A stretch of 64,000 bases of DNA from Ignavibacteriota bacterium (GTDB taxonomy: Bacteria; Bacteroidota; Ignavibacteria; Ignavibacteriales; Melioribacteraceae). The notes under the pieces are model-generated. The model did not search any database. It had not been told where the DNA came from and saw only the letters and a program-made list of their open reading frames with translations. Numbering within the stretch: position 1 is the stretch's first letter; every line of letters starts with the position of its first letter. The translations under genes were made by a program, and so were the position numbers. The DNA is taken from contig PAAX01000019.1 of NCBI GenBank assembly GCA_002698995.1, positions 1 to 64,000 on the forward strand, given 5' to 3'. Of the stretch, positions 45,025-54,727 are shown piece after piece.

Positions 45025-45675
45025 TTATCTTGAAGAAACTTTACCTAAACCACTAATATCAGAATAAATATTTTCCGGTGATCCGTCATAGATCACTTTT
45101 CCCACACCTGAAATATCAGATTTCAAAATTCCGCTGCAATAAACTTCTGCTTTACTTGCACCGCTTACATCCAAATCAACATTCTTACATTTAAAATCAA
45201 AAGCATCTAAATCTGCCGCACCCGAAATATCAGCATTAAGTTTTTCTGCTGTACCAACCAACTTAACTTTACCGGCACCGCTTACCGAAAGTCTGAAATC
45301 TTCACTGTTAATATTCTCAACAAAATATTTACTTGCGCCTGAAGATTCTACTCTATTTAATTCAGGTACAGTTACATAGACAGTTATATGTTCTCTTGGG
45401 TTTAAATTTTTTCTTTGATCTAAAATTAAAGTTGAACCGCTTACTCTTGTTTCAATGTACTGTAGCAGGTTTTCTTCTGCTTCAATTTTTAATGTAGGTT
45501 CTGATCCGACTTCAACGTAAACTCTGAAAATTCCACCTGCTTCAATTGCATTAAAATCATCAACTTTTCTGGTTTCTTCTTGCAATTCGCCGTTCCCTCT
45601 TATTCCGGAATGACTGCATGCTGATACTCCTACTAACGATAATAAAACAAAAATGCTTAATAATATTCTTTTCAT
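45025..45675 (-). CDS. GIN-domain (DUF2807) lipoprotein
   Basis: A 216-residue protein with a lipobox (SLVGVSAC, cysteine about 20) and a right-handed beta-helix-like DUF2807 domain: RKVDDFNAIEAGGIFRVYVE, LKIEAEENLLQYIETRVSG, ITVYVTVPELNRVESSGAS and repeated DISGAADLDAF / DVSGASKAEVYCSG units. Such head-GIN proteins are abundant in this phylum, without a settled role. It diverges from the triple-AAA+ gene (147 bases between starts) and ends in a strong terminator. Confidence 0.87.
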   Translation of the reverse strand: MKRILLSIFVLLSLVGVSACSHSGIRGNGELQEETRKVDDFNAIEAGGIFRVYVEVGSEPTLKIEAEENLLQYIETRVSGSTLILDQRKNLNPREHITVYVTVPELNRVESSGASKYFVENINSEDFRLSVSGAGKVKLVGTAEKLNADISGAADLDAFDFKCKNVDLDVSGASKAEVYCSGILKSDISGVGKVIYDGSPENIYSDISGLGKVSSR

Positions 45676-45822: not shown

Positions 45823-48800
45823 ATGGAAAAGAATACAAACCATCTTCAAGAAGCTTATGACCATTTATGGAATGGTAGATTTCGTCTTGCTTTACAATCT
45901 GCCAAAAAAGCTTATGATGAAAATCCAATAAAAAGTGATTCATTAATTTGTTATGCCTGGGCATTATTAGAAAATGGAAATCCCGCTAAAGCAATTGAAA
46001 ATGCAAATCTTGCTGTTGAAGTTGATCCGATGAATTCGAATGCAAGAATGATTAGAGGATTTTTATTAGTAAGAATGGGAATCTTTGAAGGAGCTATTTC
46101 TGATTTAGATTATGCGATGGAAGAAAATAAAAAGCTAATTGCACAAGGATATATTGCAAAAGCCAAAGCATATGCAAGTGTTAGTAAATTTAATGAAGCA
46201 TTAATAGCAAATGAACTTGGAATTACTTTATCCGGGAAAAATAATAATTCAAAATATTTTTTAGAATTAGCTCAAAAAATAACTGAGTCGAAAAATAAAA
46301 TATCTTCTAAAACTGCAGAGAAATTAATTGTTCAAATTAAAGAGTCATTAAAACAGAATGAATCTTGGTTTGCCCTTTTTGTATCAAGAAGGTTATTAGA
46401 TGACAAAGATCTAAAAAAGGAATTTAAGGAAATTGAACTTCTTGAAATTGAAGCAATGATAAAGATGTTTCAATTCAAACCAGCTGAAAAAAAACTAAAT
46501 CAAATTGAAAATGATTTTATTGATGATAGTAAGTTCAAAGAATTAAAAGACTATGTTGATAAATGCTTAAAAACTGATGAAAACGAAGATGAACAAATTG
46601 AATTCAAATCCAGAAAAACAATAACAAAAGATTTACTTGAAGATAAGATTGGGGTTACAAAAAAAACTAACTTGGTTATTTATCCAAACAATTGGATGGA
46701 AATATTTTCTGCCAAATTATTTGATGTATTTGAAGATAAAAATTTTGGCGTAAGAAGATATTATAACCAAGTCAGTATTAAAAAAATTAGAGAAGTTGGT
46801 TTAGAAGTAATTTACATAAATCCATACTATGAACTTGAGAATAAAATTCTTGATTGCGAAATAATTTGGTATTTAAATGATTTCCAAATCTTTAAAAATA
46901 AATTTCAGATAAAATCTCCATCAGATTGGGATACAGTAATTTTTGCTCAAACTTGCGGTGATTTTGAAAAGAAAGTATGGACAGTTAAAGGTCAGGCTAA
47001 GATTGATCTTTATGTAGATAATTTCAGAGTTCTTGAAAAATATTTCTACATAGATGAAGATGATGTTTTTGATGAAGAAGATGAAGTTAAAAAGTCCAAA
47101 GAGAATAAAACATCAACCAAAATTGAAAACGAAACAAAAGGTAAGAGTAAAAAAGAGGAATCAACCTTAACAATCAAAGAACCGGACAAAACAAAAACCT
47201 TGGAAGAGATTCTTAAAGAACTTAATACTTTTATCGGATTAGATCCTTTAAAAAAATCTATTTACAGATTTATTGACTATCTGAAATTTATTGAAGAAAG
47301 AAAAAAACAAGGATTAAAAGCTAGCGATAATATTTCACTTCATGCAGTATTTCTAGGAAATCCCGGAACCGGAAAAACTACTATTGCCCGCCTCTTTGGA
47401 GATATTTACAGAGCAATGGGAATTTTAGAAAAAGGTCATGTGGTTGAAGTTGACAGATCATCTTTAGTTGGACAATATGTTGGTGAAACCGCACAAAAAA
47501 CTGAGAAAGCAGTTAAGGAAGCCATCGGCGGTGTTTTATTTATTGATGAAGCTTATACACTTATTAAAAAAGGCGCTTCCAATGATTTCGGTCAAGAAGC
47601 AATTGATGTAATTCTAAAAAGAATGGAAGATTTAAAGGGACAATTTATTGTTGTTGCTGCTGGTTATCCTGAAGAAATGAAATCATTTATTGGTTCTAAT
47701 CCTGGACTTCAATCGAGGTTTACAAATGAATTTATTTTTGATGATTATACTCCATCCGAATTAATTAAAATATTTGATCTTCAGTTAAACAATGAAGAAT
47801 ATAAAATTGCAGATGACGCAAAAATTATTCTTGAGAAAAAAATAACAGAACTTTATCGCAAAAGAGACAGCTCTTTTGGCAATGCAAGATTAATAAAACG
47901 AATATTTGAGCAGGCAAAAATAAATCTTGGTAAAAGATTTTCTGAACTAAAAGAAGAAGAAAGATCAAAAGATAATTTAGTACTCATCAATAATGATGAT
48001 ATTACATCAATATTTGAAATTGATAAAAAATCAGAAATTGATCTGCCAATAAATGAAGAACTTCTTGAAGAAGGTTTATACGAATTAAATAGTCTAACCG
48101 GATTAACTGAAGTAAAAAAAGAAATTAATGAAATGGTTAAACTGGTTAAGCATTATAAAAATTCTGATGAAGATATAAGCAGTAAATATGTATCGCATAT
48201 TTTATTTACCGGAAATCCGGGTACAGGAAAAACTACTGTTGCTAGAATATTCAGCAAAATATTTTCAGCATTAGGTGTTCTAAAGAAGGGACATTTAATC
48301 GAAACTGATAGACAAGGATTGGTTGCAAATTATGTTGGTCAAACAGCAACTCAAACTAATGCCGTAATTGATAAAGCATTTGGCGGTACACTTTTTATAG
48401 ATGAAGCTTATACTTTGATAAAGCAAGGAAGTACAAGCGATTTTGGAATTGAAGCAGTTGAGACATTACTTAAAAGGATGGAAGATGATAAAGGAAAGTT
48501 CATTTGTATTGCAGCAGGTTATTCAGAAGAAATGAAAATATTTGTTGAATCTAATCCTGGATTAAAATCAAGATTTACAAAAACAATTTACTTTGAAGAT
48601 TATAATCCAAAAGAATTACTGACAATTTCAGAAAATCTTGCAGCATCAAAAAAACTTTCTTTCAAAGAAGAAACACGAGATAATCTTCTTAAACATTTTA
48701 ATGAAATTTATCGAACAAGAGATAAACATTTTGGTAATGCAAGAATTGTAAGAAATCTATTTGAAGAAGCTGAAAGAAATAGGTTATTACGAATAGCAGA

Positions 48801-49707
48801 AAATTCAGATTCAGCAAAAGAGTTACTTTTCGAAGATTTCAAATCAATCAGCACTAAAAGAATTAAAGAAAAATATAAAGTATCAATAGATTATGAAAAG
48901 ATGAATAATCTTATTGATGAATTGAATAATCTTACAGGATTACAAAATGTTAAAGATGGAGTCAATAAGCTTGTAAGCAGCTTAAAAGTTTCTATTTTAC
49001 GAAAGGAACGCGGATTAAAAATAATTGATAAAAGTCTTCATTCAGTTTTTATGGGAAATCCAGGCACGGGAAAAACAACGGTAGCAAGGCTTTACAGTAA
49101 AATTCTTAAAGAAATGGGACTTTTAGAAAAAGGTCATTTAGTTGAAGTTGATCGATCAGCATTAGTTGCAGGTTATCAAGGACAAACAGCAGCTAAAACA
49201 GATAAGATTATTGAATCTGCAATAGGTGGAACATTATTTATTGATGAAGCTTACACTTTATCCAGAGGTGCTAATGATTTTGGACAGGAAGCAATTGATA
49301 CACTGTTAAAAAGAATGGAAGATTACCAAAATCAATTCGTTGTAATAACGGCTGGTTATCCCAATGAAATGAAAAAGTTTATAAATTCTAATCCCGGATT
49401 ACTTTCAAGATTTACCAACATATTTAATTTTGAAGATTATAATCCTCGTCAACTTCTCGAAATAGCTTACCAAATTTCAAAACAAAGCGGATATAAGCTT
49501 GACGAAGGTGCACTGCAAATGCTTCTTGAAATTTTCAATGAAATATATGCTAAACGAGATCTTAACTTTGGAAATGCAAGAACAGCTAAAAATATTTTAT
49601 ATAAAGCTATCAGTAATCAAGAAGCCAGAATAGCTCAACTGTTAAATCCGTCTAATGAAGAATTAGTCTTATTAACTTACCAGGATTTTGAGAATATAAA
49701 TATTTAG
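45823..49707 (+). CDS. TPR protein with three tandem CbbX/SpoVK-type AAA+ modules
   Basis: A 1294-residue protein. Residues 6-150 are TPR-like helical pairs; 283-413 form a beta-rich domain (NLVIYPNNWMEIFSAKL... EKYFYIDEDD); an acidic/lysine linker runs to about 455. Three AAA+ modules start near 460, 750 and 1028. Each has Walker A GNPGTGKT (512-519, 797-804, 1078-1085), Walker B LFIDEA (D575, D860, D1141), an SRF arginine-finger block (NPGLxSRF) and FGNAR sensor 2. Pore loops differ: YVGETA, YVGQTA, YQGQTA. The layout recalls EccA and SpoVK chaperones, but target and pathway are unknown. It stands alone, divergent from a lipoprotein and convergent with an SDR. Confidence 0.85.
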   Translation: MEKNTNHLQEAYDHLWNGRFRLALQSAKKAYDENPIKSDSLICYAWALLENGNPAKAIENANLAVEVDPMNSNARMIRGFLLVRMGIFEGAISDLDYAMEENKKLIAQGYIAKAKAYASVSKFNEALIANELGITLSGKNNNSKYFLELAQKITESKNKISSKTAEKLIVQIKESLKQNESWFALFVSRRLLDDKDLKKEFKEIELLEIEAMIKMFQFKPAEKKLNQIENDFIDDSKFKELKDYVDKCLKTDENEDEQIEFKSRKTITKDLLEDKIGVTKKTNLVIYPNNWMEIFSAKLFDVFEDKNFGVRRYYNQVSIKKIREVGLEVIYINPYYELENKILDCEIIWYLNDFQIFKNKFQIKSPSDWDTVIFAQTCGDFEKKVWTVKGQAKIDLYVDNFRVLEKYFYIDEDDVFDEEDEVKKSKENKTSTKIENETKGKSKKEESTLTIKEPDKTKTLEEILKELNTFIGLDPLKKSIYRFIDYLKFIEERKKQGLKASDNISLHAVFLGNPGTGKTTIARLFGDIYRAMGILEKGHVVEVDRSSLVGQYVGETAQKTEKAVKEAIGGVLFIDEAYTLIKKGASNDFGQEAIDVILKRMEDLKGQFIVVAAGYPEEMKSFIGSNPGLQSRFTNEFIFDDYTPSELIKIFDLQLNNEEYKIADDAKIILEKKITELYRKRDSSFGNARLIKRIFEQAKINLGKRFSELKEEERSKDNLVLINNDDITSIFEIDKKSEIDLPINEELLEEGLYELNSLTGLTEVKKEINEMVKLVKHYKNSDEDISSKYVSHILFTGNPGTGKTTVARIFSKIFSALGVLKKGHLIETDRQGLVANYVGQTATQTNAVIDKAFGGTLFIDEAYTLIKQGSTSDFGIEAVETLLKRMEDDKGKFICIAAGYSEEMKIFVESNPGLKSRFTKTIYFEDYNPKELLTISENLAASKKLSFKEETRDNLLKHFNEIYRTRDKHFGNARIVRNLFEEAERNRLLRIAENSDSAKELLFEDFKSISTKRIKEKYKVSIDYEKMNNLIDELNNLTGLQNVKDGVNKLVSSLKVSILRKERGLKIIDKSLHSVFMGNPGTGKTTVARLYSKILKEMGLLEKGHLVEVDRSALVAGYQGQTAAKTDKIIESAIGGTLFIDEAYTLSRGANDFGQEAIDTLLKRMEDYQNQFVVITAGYPNEMKKFINSNPGLLSRFTNIFNFEDYNPRQLLEIAYQISKQSGYKLDEGALQMLLEIFNEIYAKRDLNFGNARTAKNILYKAISNQEARIAQLLNPSNEELVLLTYQDFENINI

Positions 49708-50495
49708 CTATTCCCTTTTTTATAAATAGTTTCAACAACTTTACCTGTTAGATTTAGTACTAATTTTTTAGGAAGAATTTTAGATAACAATAAAGTTGTT
49801 TTGTTTGGAAATCCATCAATAACAGATGGTTTTTTACCAAGTGCGTTTAATGCAGTTTCAACAACTTGTTCAGGTCTTCTTGCAAAAGGACCTGTAGTTA
49901 CATTTGCAACTCTTTGAAATTCTGTCACAGTTCCACCAGGATTTACATTAAGAACGTCAACATTATATCTTTTCATTTCGTACCAAAGTGATTCACCTAA
50001 ATATGCATTGAAAACTTTTGTTGCAGAATATGTACTCATTAATGGTGTTGGCTGCACTGCTACAACTGAACCTAAGAATATTACTGCCCCTTTTCTTTTT
50101 TCAACCATTGGTCTAATAAAATGATGAGTTAAAATTGTTGGAACTACACAGTTTAGTTTTACCATCTGAGCTTCATTTTTGGGATTATTAGAATGGAAAT
50201 ATCCGGTTGAACCATAACCGGCATTGTTAACTAATATACCAATCTCAATGTTCTCAATATGCTTCGAAATCTTTTCTATAATATTTTCTTCAGTTAAATC
50301 TAATTCTATATTTATAATATCAACATTATACTTTGATTGAATCTCTCTCTTTAAATTATCAAGTCTCTCTTTCCTTCTAGCAATTAAGACCAAATTCATT
50401 CCAAGTTCTGCAAGTCTTCTTGCAAAAGATTCACCAATTCCGGATGAAGCTCCGGTAATCAGAGCATAATCACCATATTTATTTTTTAAGTTCAT
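49704..50495 (-). CDS. Short-chain dehydrogenase/reductase
   Basis: A 263-residue NAD(P)-dependent oxidoreductase. The cofactor loop is ALITGASSGIGESFARRLAE and RRKERLDNL suggests NADP preference; ILVNNAGYGSTG, GSVVAVQPTPLMSTYSATK with the catalytic Ser-Tyr-Lys, and NVNPGGTVTEF follow. A C-terminal hydrophobic segment (KTTLLLSKILPKKLVLNLTG) may touch the membrane, as in DltE/HSD-type SDRs. Substrate unknown. Its end overlaps the convergent AAA+ gene by 4 bases. Confidence 0.88.
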   Translation of the reverse strand: MNLKNKYGDYALITGASSGIGESFARRLAELGMNLVLIARRKERLDNLKREIQSKYNVDIINIELDLTEENIIEKISKHIENIEIGILVNNAGYGSTGYFHSNNPKNEAQMVKLNCVVPTILTHHFIRPMVEKRKGAVIFLGSVVAVQPTPLMSTYSATKVFNAYLGESLWYEMKRYNVDVLNVNPGGTVTEFQRVANVTTGPFARRPEQVVETALNALGKKPSVIDGFPNKTTLLLSKILPKKLVLNLTGKVVETIYKKGNS

Positions 50496-52834: not shown

Positions 52835-52857
52835 AAATGATAAAAGTTATATCATTT
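52835..52857 (-). terminator. Possible hairpin at the end of the BMC gene
   Basis: AAATGATA (52835-52842) and TATCATTT (52850-52857) are a perfect 8-base inverted repeat with a 7-base loop, overlapping the BMC stop codon. It is AT-only and lacks a clear T tract on the minus strand, so it is at best a weak terminator or stability element. Confidence 0.3.
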
Positions 52858-53392
52858 CACTCAATAATTCTTGTCTTGGTTGAGCAATAACAACTTTATT
52901 AACAAGAAGCCCTTTGTCAGCAATTACTTTTGCGCCCGAATCAACTGCACTAGTAACAGCAGCAACTTCACCTGTTAAAGTACAGAAAGCTTTTCCACCT
53001 AATGCCATAGCTAACCGAATTTCAATAATTTTTACATTAGAAGATTTAACAGCCGCATCTGCTCCTTCAATTAATGATGCAACAGAAAAGGATTCTAAAA
53101 TACCTAATGCTTCTAAAGTCTGCACACCTGTATGTCCGGCAAGAGCTGGAAAAATATCTGGGTGAACATTAGGAATTACAAAAGTATCTATAACTGCAAA
53201 ATCAATTTGATTTGCAGCAGCATCAACAGCGGTTTGAACTTCCGCAACATCACCACCGATTAATACCATATATTTACCGGAACAAATTGTTCTTGATAAA
53301 ACCAATTCAACTTGAGATGTTTTAAGCATTATATCAGCCGCCTGCATTCCTGCTGCTATACTTGTCATTTCAATTAGTCCAAGTGAATTCAT
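52847..53392 (-). CDS. pduT: PduT-like tandem-BMC shell protein with Fe-S cysteine
   Basis: A 181-residue bacterial microcompartment shell protein with two BMC domains (residues 4-90 and 96-178). The first carries LVLSRTICSGKYMVLIGGDV, in which C37 corresponds to the pore cysteine that binds a 4Fe-4S cluster in PduT. Trimers would form a pseudohexameric tile with a redox centre in the pore. The gene starts 21 bases after the PduS-like gene ends, with AGAGG as ribosome site. No other shell or core enzyme genes are nearby, so the tile must join a compartment encoded elsewhere. Confidence 0.87.
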   Translation of the reverse strand: MNSLGLIEMTSIAAGMQAADIMLKTSQVELVLSRTICSGKYMVLIGGDVAEVQTAVDAAANQIDFAVIDTFVIPNVHPDIFPALAGHTGVQTLEALGILESFSVASLIEGADAAVKSSNVKIIEIRLAMALGGKAFCTLTGEVAAVTSAVDSGAKVIADKGLLVNKVVIAQPRQELLSEMI

Positions 53393-53413: not shown

Positions 53414-54727
53414 TTAGTTTGTAATTCTAATAAACTCTTCTGAAACATGGGATACTTTACCAGAAATTGAAGCATGAATATTTGCACCCATTTTTCCATC
53501 CTTTATTTCAGCAATTAGATCTCCTACATTTACCATATCTCCAATTTTAACAATAGATTCAGCCGAAGCACCAACGTGCTGCTTTAAATAAATTTTAACA
53601 GTTTTAGGATCAATTTCATCTTTTGTAAAAGGAGTTTTTCTTTCATATTTAAGAAGATCAAGTCTTTTCATCAATTGTTTGAGCGGAACTCTTCTTCCCT
53701 CTTTAATAGGATGTACTTTAACCGGTTTAGGCTGTTCGTATCTTTGTCCGGTTTTTCTTAATTCTTCTTTTCCCTGAACGCATGCTTCTCTTGGATATAA
53801 ATCTTCCGGACAAGCATACAAAGAACATAAGCCGCAAGCGCAACACAAATCTGCGTACTGGTTCCAGACAGCTTCACCGGTCTTAGTAAATCCCAATGAT
53901 CTCATAACTTTATGAGGTTGTACATCATAACCCAATAAATATCTAGGACAAAATTCGGTACAGTAACTGCATTGATCACAAGCAGATTTCCCTATTCTAT
54001 TCATATCCTTTATTTCTCTGTTCATTCTGGAAATGAGATAATGATCTTTCGGTAAAATAATTATTCCGGCAGTAGTTTTTGTTACAACTTCAGAAGTATC
54101 AAATGAAAGCTTGCCCATTAATATTCCGCTTACAAATATTCCATAATCAGAAGTAGTAGTTCCACCGGCAAATTCAATTATTTCCTTAAACGAAGTTCCA
54201 ATCGGTACAAAAAAACTTTTTGGTTCTTTTACCATTCCAGTTACACAAACAAATTTTTGTGTTACCGGTTTTCCAATACTTGCATTATGTACGTTATAAA
54301 AAGTTTCAACATTATTAACAAGGCATCCAACATCAAGAGGAATTCCATGAGGAGGAATTAATCTTTTTGTTCCGGCATATACCAACTCATATTCATCACC
54401 ACTTGGATAAAAATCACCAAGAATACACATATCGATGTTAGTTTCATCTGTAAATTTTTGAATAGCTTCTATTGCTAAATGATTTTTATCCTTTATTCCG
54501 AAAACACCTTTTTTTGCTTTAGTGTTATTCATCATTAACTGCATACCGTTAACAATTTCTTCAGGATAATTAACCATAATTTCATAATCTTTGTGAAGCA
54601 AAGGTTCACATTCTGCACCGTTAGCAAGAACAAATTCAACTTCGGATTTTGCTTTAATATGTGTTGGAAAACCTGCTCCACCGGCTCCAACAACTCCTGC
54701 TTTAAATATTTGATCTGCTAAACTCAT
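53414..54727 (-). CDS. pduS: PduS-like flavin/Fe-S electron transfer protein (RnfC family)
   Basis: A 437-residue protein. The N-terminal flavin-binding fold has GAGGAGFPTHIKA and NGAECEPLLHKDYE; a soluble-ligand-binding-beta-grasp part precedes two 4Fe-4S sites with eight cysteines (CDQCSYCTEFCP and CCACGLCSLYACP), then a barrel-sandwich region to the end. In 1,2-propanediol compartments PduS reduces cobalamin and passes electrons to PduT. Here the same pair occurs alone, so a general electron exit from a compartment is likely. It overlaps the phosphatase gene by 4 bases. Confidence 0.88.
   Translation of the reverse strand: MSLADQIFKAGVVGAGGAGFPTHIKAKSEVEFVLANGAECEPLLHKDYEIMVNYPEEIVNGMQLMMNNTKAKKGVFGIKDKNHLAIEAIQKFTDETNIDMCILGDFYPSGDEYELVYAGTKRLIPPHGIPLDVGCLVNNVETFYNVHNASIGKPVTQKFVCVTGMVKEPKSFFVPIGTSFKEIIEFAGGTTTSDYGIFVSGILMGKLSFDTSEVVTKTTAGIIILPKDHYLISRMNREIKDMNRIGKSACDQCSYCTEFCPRYLLGYDVQPHKVMRSLGFTKTGEAVWNQYADLCCACGLCSLYACPEDLYPREACVQGKEELRKTGQRYEQPKPVKVHPIKEGRRVPLKQLMKRLDLLKYERKTPFTKDEIDPKTVKIYLKQHVGASAESIVKIGDMVNVGDLIAEIKDGKMGANIHASISGKVSHVSEEFIRITN

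Follow-up and report, generated by a model that had tools for sequence, protein, structure and literature searches.

In this article, I will discuss a gene of an Ignavibacteriota bacterium (contig PAAX01000019.1 of assembly GCA_002698995.1, whose first 64,000 nucleotides, hereafter the window, were analysed), the product of which joins a helical region of tetratricopeptide repeat (TPR) type, an immunoglobulin-like (Ig-like) beta domain and three active AAA+ modules in a single chain. The AAA+ clade, that of SpoVK, CbbX and EccA, is a known one, and what is new is the architecture: neither this combination of parts nor any study of the triple-AAA family was found in the literature searched, in which the wider clade is covered by PMC10659427, a source available without its architecture figure. 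The triple-AAA protein represents a real, conserved family and is not a chance open reading frame, because its N-terminal 439 residues, searched apart from the AAA+ modules, find matches at E <= 1e-5 in 48 of 58 related genomes (its own included). Comparison of sequences establishes the domain order, the family, the intact catalytic sites, the gene order in relatives and the lack of a permease match in the window genome. As to function, my proposal is tentative and held with somewhat less than even confidence: a cytosolic, dedicated AAA+ remodelling chaperone of the SpoVK/CbbX/EccA type, built of stacked rings and ancestrally encoded beside an ABC exporter, which probably helps to fold or activate a partner protein. 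A dedicated remodeller is proposed because the available part of PMC10659427 describes the SpoVK clade as dedicated chaperones whose variable N-termini probably recruit substrates.

The matched N-termini are 22-43% identical to that of the window protein (its own gene excepted), lie in frames of mostly about 1300 residues, and occur in 28 of 34 genomes of family f1, all five of f2 and 15 of 19 of f3. When the class was sampled, 131 of 149 genomes gave some N-terminal match, and among the matches listed those covering the whole N-terminus all fell within the family and order of the window, the others being TPR-only or beta-only. A wider set of relatives, the best 80 of 527 confirmed loci, was chosen with the three-module query and is for that reason biased towards multi-module proteins; within it the TPR region, beta domain and AAA part follow in that order only in L098, from an Ignavibacteriales bacterium, and I take the window to belong to Ignavibacteriales too. 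Orthologue counts refer to 48 proteins, that of the window and those of 47 further loci, from 45 genomes (the matched genomes G021, G026 and G029 were left out); decay and arginine fingers were counted in the 45 full-length members left when the shorter family forms L089, L093 and L096 are set aside, and the N-terminal alignment holds 47 of the 48, without L093.

The original prediction, made from the letters of the window alone, had described three AAA+ modules about 285 residues apart, complete in Walker A, Walker B, arginine finger and FGNAR and differing in their pore loops, and the protein bears this out. Its Walker A motifs are spaced by 285 (512 to 797) and 281 (797 to 1078) residues; each module carries the motifs GNPGTGKT, LFIDEAY, SRF (at 631, 916 and 1195) and FGNAR; no module has lost its Walker A Lys/Thr, Walker B Asp/Glu or arginine finger, the sensor-2 arginine is present in all three FGNAR motifs, and the pore loops read as given in Table 1. 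Pairwise, the modules are 45-52% identical. The tyrosine of the GY sensor-1 signature that PMC10659427 gives for the clade (Y615, Y900 and Y1179) lies in a column kept in 48, 43 and 36 of the 48 orthologues for modules 1, 2 and 3, and a conserved asparagine (N626, N911 and N1190) stands six residues, not four, ahead of the SRF arginine in every module. That the modules are of the SpoVK/CbbX/EccA type, as had been predicted, is confirmed by Pfam, which finds an AAA core followed by AAA_lid_6, the mark of the clade, in each of the three (whole-protein scores above the cut-off), by the NCBIfam models of SpoVK, EccA and CbbX, each of which matches in three stretches, and by PDB matches.

That the protein is simply CbbX, EccA or SpoVK doing its known job is scarcely credible: the NCBIfam scores pass the three equivalog cut-offs when the modules are summed, but the best single module reaches 278.5 bits against the SpoVK cut-off of 422.95 (TIGR02881 gives 278.5, 276.5 and 259.3 per module, 786 for the three summed), the RuBisCO large subunit PF00016, positive in 5 of 14 controls, has no match in the window genome, and EccC matches are weak. 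The best of these (TIGR03925) has 31.4 bits against a cut-off of 346.55, which no control genome passed, and falls in an 839-residue frame that would be FtsK-like. Orthology to CbbX or SpoVK is rejected on the missing RuBisCO match and on module scores short of the SpoVK cut-off, and identity with EccA is unlikely, although the EccC search, which gave weak matches alone, had no positive control. Anti-phage IetA, an ATPase that works with a protease partner, is rejected as well, since NF042959 scores 58.5 bits against a cut-off of 510 and the PADLOC match (8e-22) reflects AAA-type similarity alone; Pfam found no protease family among the nine scanned window neighbours of the gene.

As for the known systems themselves, EccA and SpoVK have one AAA+ module each, and p97/Cdc48 has two behind a different N-domain. 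CbbX, the RuBisCO activase (PDB 3zuh, 3syk), shares the AAA+ core and is the best PDB sequence match (E 4e-52), but it is a chain of about 300 residues with one module, to which the window protein adds a TPR-type region, an Ig-like domain and further modules to make three. EccA, of type VII secretion (PDB 9lur; EccA1 E 1e-49), is alike in AAA+ type and in having TPRs in front, but its N-terminus combines those TPRs with a beta-helix (PMC10659427), where the window protein has an Ig-like sandwich followed by three modules. SpoVK, the MurG chaperone of sporulation, belongs to the same clade by profile and is the model for a dedicated chaperone, but has a short N-terminal domain and is found only in sporulating Firmicutes, according to the available text of PMC10659427, a figure title of which calls SpoVK 'triple AAA+', the one mention of a bacterial triple-AAA protein in the papers listed by a search for such proteins; the window protein differs in its TPR-type region, Ig-like domain and three modules. 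p97/Cdc48 is likewise tandem, and is placed by the same text in another AAA+ clade (PMC10659427).

The original prediction had also held that no module is decayed, which stands for the window protein and fails for the family: among the 45 full-length members the catalytic residues are complete in 44 first, 43 second and 35 third modules, and lost in one, two and ten. A disabled ATP site in one module, which it had named as counting against it, is absent from the window protein and present in some relatives. Decay of module 3 needs at least six changes on the tree of family proteins, and the mean identity to the window protein is 63% for module 3 (decayed copies included) versus 58% and 57% for modules 1 and 2 (n = 44). 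The usual AAA+ pore loop is aromatic-hydrophobic-Gly, the form found in modules 1 and 2 of the window protein, and module 3 has Tyr-Gln-Gly; across the orthologues the second position is Ile or Val in 48/48 first and 43/48 second modules and Gln in 35/48 third modules.

The arrangement of the rings can be approached through the same lesions. A Walker lesion occurs in 12 of the 135 modules of the full-length proteins (11 proteins); none of these 12 keeps its arginine finger, against a loss of the finger in 1 of the 123 modules without such a lesion (Fisher 2.8e-16, uncorrected for shared ancestry). Indirectly, this co-loss points to stacked rings of like modules rather than to an in-plane ring as in dynein, because in a mixed in-plane ring a dead module would go on supplying its finger to the site of its neighbour. 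In a PDB sequence search, residues 509-868 align in one stretch with residues 220-563 of Cdc48 (360 versus 344 long), a span that, by the domain borders of Cdc48, covers both of its modules. The triple-ring remodeller of the original prediction gains indirect support for its stacking from the co-loss and from this p97-like spacing. One dynein or midasin chain alone forms a six-module in-plane ring, and the three modules might instead be part of a single such ring to which two chains contribute; three divides six evenly, and the modules differ from one another while each keeps its identity across the order, but I consider this very unlikely, given that all 12 lesioned modules lost the finger while the other two modules are intact in 10 of the 11 proteins (the exception, L084, has two dead modules), and that there are also members that have two, four or five modules. 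Several observations nevertheless weigh against stacked rings that thread a partner through their pore: decay could strip a module of all its motifs at once, and the shared ancestry is uncorrected; the four-module proteins L100, L101, L109 and L151 (four of eight examined) keep the NxxxxxRF arginine in their first module, the Walker B of which is altered, as does, by eye, the five-module paralogue of the window genome; and the aromatic pore-loop position of module 2, Tyr or Phe in 33/48, is His in 11/48.

The history of the modules was read from a tree of 155 of them, taken from 23 of the 48 orthologues (L050, L056, L057 and L081 with decayed module 3 among them), 14 double-beta proteins, six four-module proteins, 13 other proteins and the five-module paralogue. 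Modules 1, 2 and 3 of the 23 orthologues each form their own clade (support 0.998, 0.994 and 1.0); module 2 clusters with the second module of the 14 Bacteroidota-type double-beta proteins (support 1.0), and module 1 with their first module, at a support of just 0.37. The simplest reading of these sequences is a shared ancestral beta-AAA-AAA core, to which the TPR region and module 3 would have been added within the taxonomic order of the window. The Bacteroidota proteins in question, of about 870 residues (e.g. L124 and L131; 870-920 or so for double-beta proteins of the 80 loci, where complete), have the beta domain in common by profile but lack the TPR region and the third module and carry two beta domains. 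Of the 33 loci among the 80 that the beta-domain profile matches, one is L098 and the other 32 encode proteins that carry a pair of beta stretches. In a sample of the phylum complete double-beta N-termini occur in 6 of 296 genomes (G072, G220, G240, G302, G311 and G326), and any match at 1e-10 in 17. Double-beta proteins without AAA+ occur as well (L177:6526-7362 and L178:37-873, both from the family of the window genome, and L179:6418-7338); by eye they have a hydrophobic leader, and perhaps they are exported. At L180, L181 and L182 a double-beta two-AAA gene lies near genes resembling, by eye, those of Pst, PhoU and Pit phosphate transport, and directly precedes a small protein with one hydrophobic stretch.

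Intact tandem modules had been called unusual, a view that the wider set, biased as it is, does not support: two, three or four Walker A motifs are found in most of the proteins of the 80 loci, and four in 17 of them. The four- and five-module CbbX-like proteins (L009, L097 and L100) resemble the triple-AAA protein in their tandem AAA+ modules of the same type, but differ in an altered first module and in another gene cluster, of kinase, FHA and PP2C type. L009 is encoded in the window's own genome (contig C15, 9075-13253): a paralogue of 1392 residues with a start that looks zinc-ribbon-like by eye and five modules, the first with LFIDN instead of LFIDE, in a cluster of double zinc-ribbon, SMI1/KNR4-like, large kinase-like, FHA-type and PP2C-type proteins. 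In 15 of the 80 loci, those of Prevotella, Treponema and Spirochaetia included, PP2C-like and zinc-ribbon/FHA-like genes (by eye) follow a four-module protein, and in L082 (11457-12646) genes for a SiaB-type kinase and a SiaC-type phosphoprotein, with an unknown 85-residue one, immediately precede a triple-family paralogue. From these three settings one might argue that the triple-AAA protein is a phosphorylation-controlled assembly scaffold, one of a group of multi-module CbbX-like ATPases serving Ser/Thr phospho-switch systems; I find this distinctly unlikely, as none of the nine scanned window neighbours is a kinase, phosphatase or FHA protein (a GHMP kinase apart), and the neighbours common to at least 4 of the 48 loci include no such family save response-regulator (7) and sensor-like (6) ones.

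Turning to the part in front of the modules, the TPR-type N-terminus of the original prediction is upheld by TPR_16 and TPR_19 matches in Pfam, weak and confined to residues 8-76, by helices at 2-262 in an AlphaFold2 model of 440 residues built on 47 sequences (mean predicted local distance difference test, pLDDT, 90; predicted template modelling score, pTM, 0.57) and by Foldseek matches of this helical region to TPR proteins. The same model has the beta domain at 284-411, the pTM leaving the relative placement of the two uncertain. A separate middle domain of about 130 residues without a known match had likewise been noticed, with the suggestion of a domain search of residues 283-413; that search found no Pfam match among the 25 families listed of the 40 matched, residues 275-421 alone gave none at E <= 1, no family fits more than one of 40 beta-domain sequences, and PHROGs and PDB sequence profiles returned nothing consistent. 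Predicted by itself from 40 sequences (pLDDT 94, pTM 0.87), the domain models as an Ig-like sandwich. Foldseek places UNC119 on top (E 1.5e-5, TM 0.47) and PDE6-delta lower, in a range of TM 0.4-0.5, and VIA-align gives, among the matches listed, Z 8.5-10.4 for a xylosyltransferase, Wzt, AlkC, GH2 enzymes and others, many with Ig-like domains; because the fold searches give so many tied folds, no ligand or function is drawn from them.

The original prediction saw a gene standing without a client, which is true within the window and not in relatives: the neighbourhood survey that it had suggested shows that in 17 of 48 loci the AAA gene is followed at once, on its own strand, by genes for an ABC ATPase and a permease, if not as obligate companions; of these loci 11 belong to f1 and 6 to f3. 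The ATPase starts 3 to 130 bp downstream (one locus overlaps by 40 with the chosen start codon), and the permease is PF16949 in the two examples scanned. Because the pair occurs in two families with different upstream flanks (a DUF2807-type gene in 11/11 loci of f1; in f3 a groEL-like gene, by eye, in L085, L087 and L093 but a different one in L073, with L076 and L081 outside the comparison), the sequences suggest that the AAA-ABC ATPase-permease operon is old in the order, and the AAA gene was probably its first gene ancestrally. In the window genome nothing matches the permease, and the dehydrogenase found behind it in L050, L056 and L061 lies right against the AAA gene in the window, so this lineage probably lost the ABC pair and kept the AAA gene. 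Altogether the permease is present in 25 of 58 genomes: 17 with it adjoining the AAA gene, 6 with it elsewhere in AAA-bearing genomes and 2 without the AAA gene. As evidence for a link to the exporter this cuts both ways, for 25 of 48 genomes, that of the window included, have the AAA gene without the permease, 2 of the 10 genomes without the AAA gene (G039 and G048) keep the permease, and the double-beta Bacteroidota proteins have no neighbour common to more than 5 loci. Because each gene occurs without the other, the exporter is not an obligate partner, and its candidacy as obligate client is weakened accordingly.

In G039 and G048 the ABC pair directly follows a groEL-like gene, at the place where some f3 genomes insert the AAA gene. 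By eye, 6 of the 48 loci (L084, L085, L087, L091, L092 and L093) have a groEL-like gene upstream on the same strand, 110-152 bp away except in L087, which has an intervening gene. Such linkage, which also fits the chaperone reading preferred here, together with the wide distribution of the AAA gene in the order (the 48 of 58 genomes), might speak for a general proteostasis helper downstream of or beside GroEL/GroES in place of a one-client chaperone. I regard this as unlikely, seeing that the linkage occurs in f3 alone, that 10 of the 58 genomes lack the AAA gene, that the AAA gene after groEL is truncated in G035 and absent in G039 and G048, and that the clade members described in the available part of PMC10659427 act on narrow targets. 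Behind the groEL-like gene the loci form a series of erosion, from an AAA gene of whose modules two are dead (L084) through a truncated AAA gene with the ABC pair (L093) to the ABC pair alone (L191 and L192).

Around the gene itself (Table 1), a DUF2807-type homologue lies divergently upstream in 25 of 48 loci, the window included, and purE nearby in 24. An RNA-family scan found no RNA family at the AAA locus, and promoter-like sites (11 versus a shuffled mean of 21.3) and terminator-like sites (1 versus 1.4) show no excess there. Further along the window, a shell protein with two BMC domains (52847-53392) adjoins an RnfC/PduS-like protein (53414-54727), close to threonine synthase and the GHMP kinase; in 8 of 48 loci, that of the window among them, the AAA gene has a homologue of the BMC gene in its vicinity.

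Table 1. Positions in the window of the AAA gene, the parts of its product and the adjoining genes.
Feature	Position	Strand	Details and basis
AAA gene, TPR-type region - Ig-like beta domain - AAA+ x3	45823..49707	+	Open reading frame exact, 1294 residues
Helical TPR-type region, residues 1-262	45823..46608	+	Pfam TPR_16/TPR_19, model helices 2-262, Foldseek TPR matches
Ig-like beta-sandwich domain, residues 283-413, without Pfam family	46669..47061	+	Model; profile matches in Bacteroidota proteins
AAA+ module 1, residues 462-735, Walker A 512, Walker B 572, FGNAR 685, pore loop YVGETA	47206..48027	+	
AAA+ module 2, residues 745-1018, Walker A 797, Walker B 857, FGNAR 970, pore loop YVGQTA	48055..48876	+	
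AAA+ module 3, residues 1028-1294, Walker A 1078, Walker B 1138, FGNAR 1249, pore loop YQGQTA	48904..49704	+	
DUF2807 head-GIN protein, divergent neighbour of the AAA gene	45025..45675	-	Pfam; neighbourhood comparison
Short-chain dehydrogenase, convergent, 4-base overlap with the AAA gene	49704..50495	-	Pfam; neighbourhood comparison

On the reading that I prefer, that of a dedicated remodelling chaperone, six chains would probably form a stack of three homotypic rings, each made of one kind of module. A specific partner would be recruited by the Ig-like domain together with the TPR-type region, and the rings would pull on it or rearrange it via the central pore; module 3, with its Tyr-Gln-Gly loop, has been switched off in several lineages. 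Because the AAA gene ancestrally probably headed an operon with it, the ABC exporter, or cargo or something else that it handles at the cell envelope, would be the likeliest candidate client. A bolder version, which I hold to be doubtful, would have three catalytically complete stacked rings in one prokaryotic polypeptide, a new Ig-like domain that binds the substrate, and a third ring that is dispensable and regulatory or gating, with a pore loop of its own, the whole having served an ABC exporter in its ancestral state.

Genera differ naturally in how many AAA+ rings of this family's protein are active, and this provides a ready-made series for studying the role of each ring. Furthermore, an Ig-like domain without a Pfam entry is reused ahead of the modules in two- and three-module proteins, in a clade of which the described members have narrow clients, and the operon names a partner that can be tested, the ABC exporter.

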